Source: Sphaerospermopsis torques-reginae ITEP-024 (lineage in GTDB: Bacteria; Cyanobacteriota; Cyanobacteriia; Cyanobacteriales; Nostocaceae). Taken from it: a stretch of 64,000 nt of DNA. The notes under the pieces were generated by a model, which did not search any database, was not told the origin of the DNA, and saw nothing but the letters and a program-made list of their open reading frames with translations. Position 1 is the stretch's first letter. Each line of letters opens with the position of its first letter. The stretch covers positions 558,001 through 622,000 of the forward strand of contig NZ_CP080598.1 in the NCBI RefSeq assembly GCF_019598945.1. Direction: 5' to 3'. Positions 16,659 through 18,919 of this stretch are shown here, in pieces. The position numbers were made by a program, and so were the translations under genes.

Positions 16659-17228
16659 CTATAACAGTAATTCTTGTAAAATTGCCATAGATTTATTAAG
16701 TTGTTGTTTAATTAAAATATCTAATAATTGATCTGATGTCATTGGGGGATTTTTTAAAGTATTCAATTGATTTTTAAATGCTTGACAAACAAGCTCAGAA
16801 TTAAGATTGATTAAATTCAAAATAAAATCATCTGGATGTTGTGCTTTAATACCATATTTTTCAATATATTCAGATGGAAAATCTTTTAAATTAAAAGTAA
16901 CAATTATTTCAGCACAACTTTTAATAGCTGCTGCTAAAACATGACGATCATCTGCATCTGGAAGTTCTAATTCCTCAATTAATTGTTCATATCCTGTAAC
17001 TAAACAATCTCGAACATTTTGATTCATTAAATTTTTCGTTCTTTCTAACTGTTTATAAGTGAGATCAGGGCGATTTTTCAAAACATTATTCATCCATTCT
17101 TTATGAATTTTTTCAGTCCATTTCGCCTGAAATAAATCAGTTAAAGCTAACCACATCAAAAAATCTCTGAGAGGTGCAGGATATAAAACACAAGCATCAT
17201 AAACAACTATCAAACCAATTGATTGCAT
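16659..17228 (-). CDS. PIN-domain ribonuclease, type II toxin
   Basis: The 189-residue protein has PIN-domain acidic positions: Asp11 in VVYDACVLYP, the HKEW glutamate near residue 43, ELPDADDRHVLAAAI near 90-100 and the TFNLKDFP aspartate. The DACVLYPAPLRDFLM start is typical of the PIN_3 group. PIN toxins cleave RNA in the cytoplasm and are neutralised by a cognate antitoxin. The ATG directly follows the stop of the HTH gene, so it is the second gene of that operon. It appears complete. Confidence 0.85.
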   Translation of the reverse strand: MQSIGLIVVYDACVLYPAPLRDFLMWLALTDLFQAKWTEKIHKEWMNNVLKNRPDLTYKQLERTKNLMNQNVRDCLVTGYEQLIEELELPDADDRHVLAAAIKSCAEIIVTFNLKDFPSEYIEKYGIKAQHPDDFILNLINLNSELVCQAFKNQLNTLKNPPMTSDQLLDILIKQQLNKSMAILQELLL

Positions 17229-17483
17229 TTAATATCCCATATTTAATTTTTGAGCTTGTTTTGCTAATTCTGCTAAAGTTTCTTGACGTTTAGCATCAAT
17301 TGTATTTTTATACTCTATTAAATCTTGATAGAATATTTGGCGATGATTTGCCGTTTTATGATAAGGAATTTCACCAGAGTCTAATAATTGAATCAGATAC
17401 TGATGGGAAACATTGAGAATTTTAGCTGCTTCTTGTGTAGTTAATTGATCGGATGTAGTAAGATTCACTTTTCTGGTTTGCAT
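17229..17483 (-). CDS. Excisionase-type HTH antitoxin
   Basis: The 84-residue protein holds a MerR/excisionase-like winged helix: LTTQEAAKILNVSHQYLIQLLDSGEIPYHKTANHRQIFYQDLIEYK. The C-terminal tail (LAELAKQAQKLNMGY) could bind the toxin. It precedes the PIN gene with no gap, the normal antitoxin-first order. It probably represses its own promoter; no operator was identified. Confidence 0.85.
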   Translation of the reverse strand: MQTRKVNLTTSDQLTTQEAAKILNVSHQYLIQLLDSGEIPYHKTANHRQIFYQDLIEYKNTIDAKRQETLAELAKQAQKLNMGY

Positions 17484-17586
17484 TTTATTAACCTAATCTA
17501 CAAATTTTAACTATGATTCTAACGGGTTTGTGTTGAGGTAATAATATTTATACATATATTATCAATGATACCATATTTTTTCAAGC

Positions 17587-17633
17587 CTGGGAATTAATTC
17601 CCAGTCTAATAACAAAAGTTGGCTGAAGCCGAC
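17587..17633 (+). repeat. REP doublet A (two hairpins) upstream of transposase
   Basis: Hairpin 1 is the palindrome CTGGGAATTAATTCCCAG (17587-17604). After the linker TCTAATAACAAAA comes hairpin 2, GTTGGCTGAAGCCGAC (17618-17633). The same hairpin-linker-hairpin order recurs at 18324-18370 and, inverted and with changed stems, at 18131-18180. These are substrates expected for the adjacent tyrosine transposase. Confidence 0.85.
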
Positions 17634-17694
17634 TATTTTTTTATAAATTGTGGGAATAATGAATATGAAAACATCATTATCAACAGGGTGTATT

Positions 17695-18132
17695 ATGGCT
17701 TCGTGGAGATTGTATTATCATTTGGTTTGGGCTACAAAAGAGCGTCAATTATTAATTACCAATGAGAGAGAACCGAAACTTTACAGTTACATTATTAGCA
17801 AAGCTGATGAATTAGAAACGATTATTCATGCTATTAATGGTACAGAAAATCACATTCATATAGTAGCTTCTATTCCTCCCAATATTTCTATTTCTGAATT
17901 TGTGCAAAAAATCAAAGGTAGCAGCACCCATTATATTAATAATGTATTTTCTGTAGAAGATATGTTTGGTTGGCAAAGAGGATATGGTGTTTTTTCGTTA
18001 GGCAGAAAACAACTAGAAGAAGCTGTGATTTATGTGAAAAATCAAAAGGAACATCATGCACAGGGTACAATAATTAAATCTTTGGAAGATTTTAATCAAG
18101 ATGATGATCCACCACAAAAATTCTATATGTAG
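17695..18132 (+). CDS. REP-associated tyrosine transposase (Y1/IS200-like)
   Basis: From the ATG at 17695 the protein has 145 residues (an upstream in-frame start would add 15 unlikely residues). It shows the Y1 transposase core: SWRLYYHLVWATKERQ, the HUH metal motif in GTENHIHIVASIPP, KIKGSSTHYIN, GWQRGYGVFSLG and the catalytic tyrosine in VIYVKNQKEHH. Such single-strand transposases of the RAYT group are usually single-copy genes bordered by REP hairpins rather than true IS ends. The stop codon lies inside hairpin doublet B. It appears intact. Confidence 0.88.
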   Translation: MASWRLYYHLVWATKERQLLITNEREPKLYSYIISKADELETIIHAINGTENHIHIVASIPPNISISEFVQKIKGSSTHYINNVFSVEDMFGWQRGYGVFSLGRKQLEEAVIYVKNQKEHHAQGTIIKSLEDFNQDDDPPQKFYM

Positions 18133-18180
18133 TCAGCTTTAGCTGACTTTGGTTATTAGCCTCAGAATTCATTCTGAGGC
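18131..18180 (-). repeat. REP doublet B, inverted copy at the transposase 3' end
   Basis: AGTCAGCTTTAGCTGACT (18131-18148), the linker TTGGTTATTA, then a 22-bp palindrome with arm GCCTCAGAAT (18159-18180). Read on the minus strand this is doublet A with both stems changed, yet pairing is kept and the linker TAATAxCAAA is conserved. It overlaps the transposase stop codon. Confidence 0.85.
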
Positions 18181-18227
18181 GGGCGTGGGGATAATGGTAA
18201 GATGGAATGTGGATATCAATGGAATTT

Positions 18228-18370
18228 TTAAGCCAGTCTGAAAATGTATTTTAAAACCCGCCTGGGAATGAATTTGAAATCATCAACAACCGGGAAATGA
18301 ATTGTCGAAACGCAATAACCCGCCTGGGAATTAATTCCCAGTCTAATAGCAAAAGTCGGCTGAAGCCGAC
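18228..18370 (+). repeat. REP doublet C with degenerate half-copies
   Basis: An intact doublet (CTGGGAATTAATTCCCAG at 18324-18341, GTCGGCTGAAGCCGAC at 18355-18370) has the same orientation as doublet A. Between 18228 and 18320 are decayed pieces: CCAGTCTGAAAATG, CCCGCCTGGGAATGAATTTG and GGGAAATGAATTGTCG. The cluster suggests repeated local insertion by the adjacent transposase. Confidence 0.75.
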
Positions 18371-18430
18371 TATAAGATTTTCATTTTTATGACAGGTTTG
18401 TGATTAATTCTTTAGATTTTACCATATTTG

Positions 18431-18919
18431 TTAATTCAACTTACCATTGCTGTTAAAGTCTTGTATTACCGGATTTTCTGATGGTGAAGGAGCTACTATT
18501 CGGAGGTTAAAGTCAATTATTAATTGATTTTTTTCAAGAGTTATATTTGCTTTTTGTACCGATAATTTGATAGATACACCATCACCACTTTCTGATTCAA
18601 TATAAAGCTGACTTTTATATCCTGCTTCCTCAAGCCATTCACTAATATTTCTCCAATTTTCTATTTTTTCATCACATTTATCTACTAGATTTTTCACATA
18701 TTTATACAAAGTGTTACATAGATCAACTTCAACACCTTTAACATTTTTATTCAGTCTCTCAGCTATTTCCGAAGGACTGTAACCACAAAGTAACCCCCGC
18801 AAATGCAGTTTCTCAATAGGTGTAAGACGTTTTCCCTTAGCAGATGCAAGATCAGTATACAGCGTTTCCAAATCCCAGTATTTAGCAGCCTGAGCAAAGC
18901 TTTCTTCAACAGATGCCAT
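18431..18919 (-). CDS. HTH-domain protein, divergent to the glycine-rich gene pair
   Basis: From ATG at 18919 the product has 162 residues. Residues about 35-75 form a LuxR-like helix-turn-helix (LTPIEKLHLRGLLCGYSPSEIAERLNKNVKGVEVDL). Similar N-terminal modules head many cyanobacterial signalling proteins. The C-terminal half is beta-rich (QLYIESESGDGVSIKLSVQKANITL) and ends without a further known domain. The gene is 119 bp from, and divergent to, the gene at 19038, so it could regulate that operon. This link is inference from position. Confidence 0.6.
   Translation of the reverse strand: MASVEESFAQAAKYWDLETLYTDLASAKGKRLTPIEKLHLRGLLCGYSPSEIAERLNKNVKGVEVDLCNTLYKYVKNLVDKCDEKIENWRNISEWLEEAGYKSQLYIESESGDGVSIKLSVQKANITLEKNQLIIDFNLRIVAPSPSENPVIQDFNSNGKLN

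Follow-up and report, generated by a model that had tools for sequence, protein, structure and literature searches.

What kind of system is formed where a small tyrosine transposase gene lies among copies of a short repeat that folds into two adjacent hairpins, and are the hairpins the substrate of the enzyme? The question is raised by a stretch of 64,000 nucleotides (hereafter the window) from the cyanobacterium Sphaerospermopsis torques-reginae ITEP-024 (contig NZ_CP080598.1, positions 558,001 to 622,000), whose genome is complete, in one contig of 5.25 Mb, and in which a first-pass annotation had pointed out three such hairpin doublets around a transposase gene. We consider it probable that the locus is a REPtron-like unit with an enzyme of IS200/IS605 type, namely a subclass 1.2 Y1 HUH transposase gene bracketed by inverted recognition units. 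The three doublets are present as annotated, the gene is a Y1 transposase, and the features, in window coordinates, are as follows.

17585-17634, forward strand: doublet A (hairpin 1 17585-17606, linker 17607-17616, hairpin 2 17617-17634).
17695-18132, forward strand: tnpA, an intact Y1 HUH transposase gene of 145 aa with the motifs NHIH, WQ and YVKNQKEHH and, by alignment, the catalytic Tyr113.
18131-18180, reverse strand (inverted): doublet B (hairpin 1 18159-18180, linker 18149-18158, hairpin 2 18131-18148).
18322-18371, forward strand: doublet C (hairpin 1 18322-18343, linker 18344-18353, hairpin 2 18354-18371).
18231-18303, forward strand: degenerate halves resembling hairpin 1, lying between B and C (repeat family D1; at 18231, 18255 and 18284).

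Doublet A lies upstream of tnpA, B lies downstream and inverted, with its hairpin 2 overlapping the end of the tnpA stop codon, and C lies further downstream; the symmetrical unit is A-gene-B, to which the description of the locus as self-contained applies, and C is an additional copy beyond it. Folded as single-stranded DNA, A, B and C each give exactly two hairpins (z of -3.8, -7.9 and -5.4), and 1, 0 and 0 of 200 shuffles each fold as well. The pattern of the linker plus the foot of hairpin 2, with up to 3 mismatches, occurs three times in the window against 0.11 expected. The stems of B differ from those of the other copies as had been claimed, with both arms changed and pairing kept, and in A one pair of hairpin 2 is a G-T wobble (GTTGGC/GCCGAC). 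The linker TAATAxCAAA, said to be common to the copies, is so except in B, where it reads TAATAACCAA, one letter off.

The doublet is built of a hairpin 1 with 10-bp arms, an unpaired linker of 10 nt and a hairpin 2 with 8-bp arms, and its copies align without gaps. Two results had been named beforehand that would refute the annotation, a scarcity of other copies and changes in the stems that break pairing no less often than they preserve it, and neither was obtained. A structure-model search of the genome returns 89 doublets at E<1e-6. In the 79 of these 89 that align without gaps, on which all the stem counts are based, changed stem pairs comprise 233 Watson-Crick, 10 G-T and 36 broken cells; pairing is thus kept far more often than it is broken. 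Counted by distinct stems, the figures are 107, 8 and 30; shuffling the arms among copies gives about 40, 32 and 111, and this contrast is the safer measure, since copies found with a structure model bias the percentage of paired cells upward. An alignment (A1) of 33 own-genome doublets, chosen to reduce redundancy from a pairing-filtered scan and two BLAST places, shows two-sided changes in 10 of 18 pairs (80 cells), a level reached by 0 of 500 shuffles, and only 5-11 two-sided cells when the partners are slid by 1-3 columns; the recount on the 79 genome-wide matches was made because some of the 33 rows came from the pairing-filtered scan. Many of the pairing failures in hairpin 1 fall at the second pair from the foot (11 of 33 rows). 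In other species, the best 150 of 220 matches, drawn from 54 of 80 loci (alignment A4; the 26 others left out were mostly near-duplicates), have 95.2% of cells paired, in an alignment whose fitting to the model favours pairing, and two-sided changes in 14 of 18 pairs (438 cells; 0 of 500 shuffles; 16-75 cells with slid partners). Across these 150 rows the fixed letters are the feet (GCC/GGC and AGTC/GACT), the tips (T-NA-A) and the linker TMATAGCNNA, and the middle stems vary. The structure of the doublet is under selection, as the annotation had proposed. In the right-hand doublets of L044, L048, L053, L055, L065 and L072, the centre of hairpin 1 is interrupted by an insert of about 24 bp, a repeat with the sequence ATGGCTTACGCCACGCTACGCTATC or variants of it, which perhaps belongs to the small dispersed repeats of cyanobacteria.

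The doublet, and not the single hairpin, is the repeated unit, again in agreement with the annotation: with up to one mismatch, the commonest hairpin 1 occurs at 38 places in the genome, all 38 within doublets, and the commonest hairpin 2 at 36, all likewise within doublets, while the reversed-pattern controls for both hairpins give 0 matches. Doublets are themselves paired, 46 of the 89 making up 23 close pairs with a gap of up to 120 nt (one pair overlapping), where random placement predicts about 0.3 close neighbours, and all 23 converge with hairpin 1 outermost, the arrangement also seen in A-gene-B. At other loci, doublets within 60 nt of each other converge in 80 cases, diverge in 18 and stand in tandem in 15. 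The partners of a pair are rarely alike: among the 16 of the 23 own pairs that are gap-free, most of which are copies of one family, none has both hairpins equal and one has hairpin 2 equal. In loci L075-L113 and L144-L223, which overlap in genomes, 64 sequence-distinct pairs were found at 43 loci, some places being counted twice, once from each direction. Both hairpins differ in 55 of these pairs, hairpin 1 is common to the partners in 7 and hairpin 2 in 2, and no pair has both in common. Random partners across this set would share hairpin 1 in 2.1 cases, hairpin 2 in 5.5 and both in 0.5, which means that sharing exceeds chance for hairpin 1 and falls short of it for hairpin 2; the rule that pair partners differ is a modest one. 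A REPIN, in which two inverted and near-identical repetitive extragenic palindromes (REPs) pair as one hairpin, was considered for these pairs and rejected, both hairpins being equal in 0/16 own and 0/64 other pairs. Whole doublets, or pairs of them, are repeated in tandem beside the transposase gene at L119 (164-nt period), L084 (181), L184 (149) and L211 (102).

Doublets also lie beside relatives of the gene. In a family sample of 217 genomes, which includes strains named Sphaerospermopsis, Dolichospermum and Nostoc, homologues at E<=1e-15 are found in 108 genomes and, separated by identity to the query, form a clade a (about 46-100% identity, 70 genomes) and a clade b (about 31-40%, 62 genomes), with both present in 24. 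Of 30 clade-a genes, 29 have a doublet of type R1 no further than 1.5 kb away, one of these loci being that of the window, itself used to build R1, and the exception (L102) being a truncated copy; ten further clade-a loci have R1 doublets in 10 of 10 cases. At ten clade-b loci R1 gives two weak matches only, at E<=0.01, and the doublet found there, type R2, has the same build with a different linker, GGCTACACARRCRA, its linker pattern being present at 9 of 10 loci and the tenth (L120) being judged by eye. In 22 of 38 clade-b lines (alignment A2, which leaves out duplicates, false linkers and the long-loop copies of L117), 98.3% of cells are paired and 36 cells are two-sided (0 of 500 shuffles); only 5 pairs have two-sided changes, a number that 231 of 500 shuffles also reach, and the pair types are fewer.

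The association appears to extend beyond the family. A scan of named genomes gave 318 related places, of which the best 80 were taken. In a sequence-blind search for pairs of neighbouring hairpins, which covered the flanks of 79 of these (L164 was left out for its short flank), 72 loci have a doublet no more than 350 nt from the gene; the same search is positive in 4.6% of shuffled windows and in 11 of 144 distal ones. The seven loci that are negative (L146, L169, L176, L181, L185, L186 and L188) all have R1 matches. Nine of the best 80 places are in metagenome-assembled genomes (MAGs) labelled as other phyla (Chloroheliaceae, Anaerolineae, Roseilinea, Parabeggiatoa, Marithrix, Desulfamplus, Desulfobacteraceae, KSB1 and Deferribacteres), each positive on at least one side in the blind search; as all nine records are MAGs, a binning error is possible. 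The doublets are associated with the gene in other species. In the Parabeggiatoa and Marithrix MAGs (L191, L212) the transposases are 58% identical to the cyanobacterial one and the doublets have nearly the same linker, a likeness that suggests transfer between this group and cyanobacteria.

Each doublet type follows the gene of its own clade and not that of the other. At least 20 R1 doublets are present in 62 of 70 genomes with a clade-a gene and in 43 of 147 without (Fisher 4.7e-17), and at least 20 R2 doublets in 59 of 62 genomes with a clade-b gene and in 90 of 155 without (1.2e-8), in counts where drafts can miss genes and the clade-a genes include broken copies. The crossed comparisons show no association in the 217 genomes (p 0.23 for the clade-b gene and R1 doublets, p 0.27 for the clade-a gene and R2 doublets). 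Because both the fixed letters and the clade-matched linkers point there, the linker is the candidate specificity element.

The enzyme belongs, by family model and fold, to the IS200/IS605-like TnpA proteins. It scores 85.5 bits against the IS200/IS605 TnpA family model NF033573 (cut-off 55), the longer open reading frame at 17650-18132 matches PF01797 (E 5.7e-28), the nearest solved sequence is IS608 TnpA (E 3.2e-9), and the predicted structure (pLDDT 83.7) best matches IS608 (E 4.3e-9) and also the structure 4er8 of a REP-associated tyrosine transposase (RAYT; E 4.9e-6). The REP/RAYT label of the first-pass annotation had to be given up: the protein reaches 20.7 bits against the RAYT model NF047646, whose cut-off is 80, and 4 of 5 further homologues give 23.6-26.6 bits or no match, all below that cut-off. 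Nor is a GTAG foot seen: at the two feet visible inside the 56-mer, GT[AG]G stands 0-2 nt 5' of the foot in 0 of the 79 gap-free own copies, and 1 of 150 other-species linkers contains it; doublet B has one GTAG, on the opposite strand and overlapping the hairpin-2 foot. Subclass 1.2 as characterized by Quentin et al. 2018 (PMC6006769) has cyanobacterial and also Bacteroidetes members, with a Y---Q--HH signature, WQ, a short core and a low copy number, and judged by its motifs (NHIH, WQ, Y---Q--HH) our TnpA fits this subclass. Apart from the truncated L102, every homologue segment has Y---Q--HH (49 of 50), the protein alignment (A3) holding 24 proteins after L109 was dropped for a stop codon and L111 and L113 were also excluded; and tnpA of this type is single-copy in the genome. 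The trait that departs from the description is the ends: where that paper describes subclass 1.2 as generally without terminal secondary structures, doublets adjoin the gene at 72/79, 29/30 and 10/10 loci in the counts above. The automatic REP search of that survey was run on genomes with tnpAREP and accepted a hairpin only with GTAG or GTGG next to it, which may be why two-hairpin units were missed.

The only two other Y1 genes of the genome (G000:C1:5176875 and 2429029), class-2-like with NHYH and YIHYNP or YIHLNP, were considered as movers of the doublets and rejected, no doublet of the genome-wide search lying within 10 kb of either. Adjoining the unit in the window, at 16659-17483 on the reverse strand, a small HTH_17 protein is followed by a PIN_3-domain protein in a toxin-antitoxin-like order.

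The gene and fold class, the selected structure, the doublet as unit, the converging layout, the association with the gene, the clade match and a presence/absence difference at one site are each directly supported; beyond them, we infer how TnpA could bind and cut DNA, pass through a single-stranded intermediate and mobilise the repeats. In single-stranded DNA, each unit would fold into two hairpins joined by the unpaired 10-nt linker; a TnpA dimer would read the fixed parts, that is, the feet, the tips and the linker; the catalytic Tyr would cut in or beside the linker or at the outer foot; and the DNA lying between two units would thereby be released and could insert at another place. In this scheme A-gene-B would be the source, the converging pairs of about 125 nt its gene-less derivatives, and the solo doublets remnants.

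Several observations weigh against this reading. Both sides of the gene are occupied at only 36 of the 79 loci of the blind search (upstream 60, downstream 48). The R1 and R2 counts behind the clade match were capped, at about 26 and 24 candidates scored in each genome, and the statistics ignore kinship. Doublets are also common without the gene, R1 being present in 197 and R2 in 201 of the 217 family genomes, and the idea that the gene is required for doublets was rejected, as they occur in most genomes without it; the own genome itself has at least 24 R2 matches yet no clade-b gene at E<=1e-15, and these matches are orphan repeats. The flanks of 13 sites in 14 genomes, with 20 regions compared, yielded no clean empty site: at L060 the own genome and G197 have a doublet pair that is missing from G196 and G168, the borders being ragged, and the aligned sites L062 and L058 show no clean border, so that no ends of the moving unit, target site or duplication could be read from these comparisons. 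Finally, many left-hand doublets of the own genome lie inside a composite of about 275 bp that is bounded by long terminal inverted repeats (GTAGGGGTTTAGCA...GTGTCAACTTAACG... at L045 and similar loci) and encloses a doublet pair. One or more of three composite arm signatures mark at least 41 of the 89 doublets, a lower bound from crude patterns; the copy number need not, for this reason, reflect TnpA, and the copies are not all independent, some being copies of one composite.

A wider proposal, which we regard as doubtful, is that subclass 1.2 forms a separate REP-like lineage, present in Cyanobacteria as well as in several other phyla; its unit would be a frozen junction of the right and left ends of an IS200/IS605 element, and the stems within a pair would be kept different. 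Hairpin 1 would correspond to the right end, the linker to the joined cleavage sites and hairpin 2 to the left end, and unequal stems within a pair would yield four hairpins and not one long hairpin. In IS200/IS605 elements this junction forms only transiently, as single-stranded circles, and the frozen-junction idea is drawn from geometry and from the behaviour of IS608.

An improbable alternative holds that the doublets are passengers, spread inside the composite by another transposase and near tnpA by chance. The composite arms speak for it, and some doublet copies may well be such passengers; the 48 other doublets, A, B and C among them, have no arm signature, even if several look like decayed arms, and the adjacency to the gene across many genera, with clade-specific matching, speaks against it.

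It is still less likely that the hairpins act as structured RNA or terminators in transcripts of neighbouring genes, including tnpA, and are not used by the enzyme. A T-run follows hairpin 2 of doublet A, and published REPs can affect transcription and mRNA (PMC8266576); against this, the bases 3' of hairpin 2 in the 150-row alignment are A-rich and not T-rich, no Rfam match up to E 1 occurs in 17400-18500, and pairs that converge with hairpin 1 outermost, on both strands and matched to a gene clade, are unexpected of terminators.

That the locus is a normal IS200/IS605 insertion sequence, in which a single hairpin works at each end and the other is incidental, is very unlikely. The family model and the fold would suit it, and IS608 and ISDra2, which share the TnpA fold and include the closest solved structures, are its natural comparison. 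Such elements have one hairpin per end, ends that are not inverted, and a mobile gene in several copies; here both hairpins and the linker are conserved together, the ends are inverted, at variance with the single subterminal, non-inverted hairpin per end of subclass 1.1, and a single-copy gene accompanies many gene-less copies. A classical RAYT with REP or REPIN, in spite of a similar genome habit (a single gene and many dispersed inverted pairs) and a common fold in 4er8, is rejected as next to impossible, given the sub-threshold RAYT score, Y---Q--HH in place of Y---NP, the lack of GT[AG]G at the visible feet and the unequal partners.

Among described repeats, the small dispersed repeats of Nostoc attributed to Elhai et al. 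2008 are said to be short (21-27 nt) and structured, with compensatory changes and no transposase assigned, and they could overlap with the doublet hairpins. For Anabaena sp. 90, 147 miniature inverted-repeat transposable elements are reported (PMC3542288), some of which may be such doublet pairs. REPtrons, that is, RAYT genes with REPs or REPINs, resemble the present system in having a single-copy HUH gene beside dispersed inverted palindromes (PMC3116915, PMC3733652, PMC8266576), and differ from it in their class 2 transposase (class 1 here), in their GTAG foot, and in lacking the two hairpins with a linker and the different partner stems. TIRtrons with 'double palindromic TIRs' (terminal inverted repeats; Di Nocera et al. 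2013, PMC3733652) likewise place a tyrosine transposase gene between inverted palindrome-bearing repeats, some of them genome-repeated, though their enzymes are RAYT-like and of other groups, and we liken them by description and not by sequence. The closest relatives of the enzyme, the subclass 1.2 proteins of PMC6006769, have the same Y---Q--HH, WQ, short core and low copy number, to which the present system adds paired two-hairpin units and dispersed copies. A literature search that covered few subscription journals and no supplements found no earlier paper assigning two-hairpin units to subclass 1.2.

The locus is, in sum, not a RAYT but a REPtron-like system, in a transposase branch reported as generally without such ends, and its meaning is that the subclass 1.2 branch has conserved, covarying two-hairpin units matched to the enzyme clade. 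Clade a with the linker TMATAGCNNA and clade b with GGCTACACARRCRA provide two natural enzyme/substrate pairs, which allow tests of the linker, instead of a GTAG foot, as the recognition determinant, and which also bear on how insertion sequences become REP systems. For the filamentous cyanobacteria, such a system would account for a widespread class of repeats, that of the R1 and R2 doublets found in most genomes of the family.
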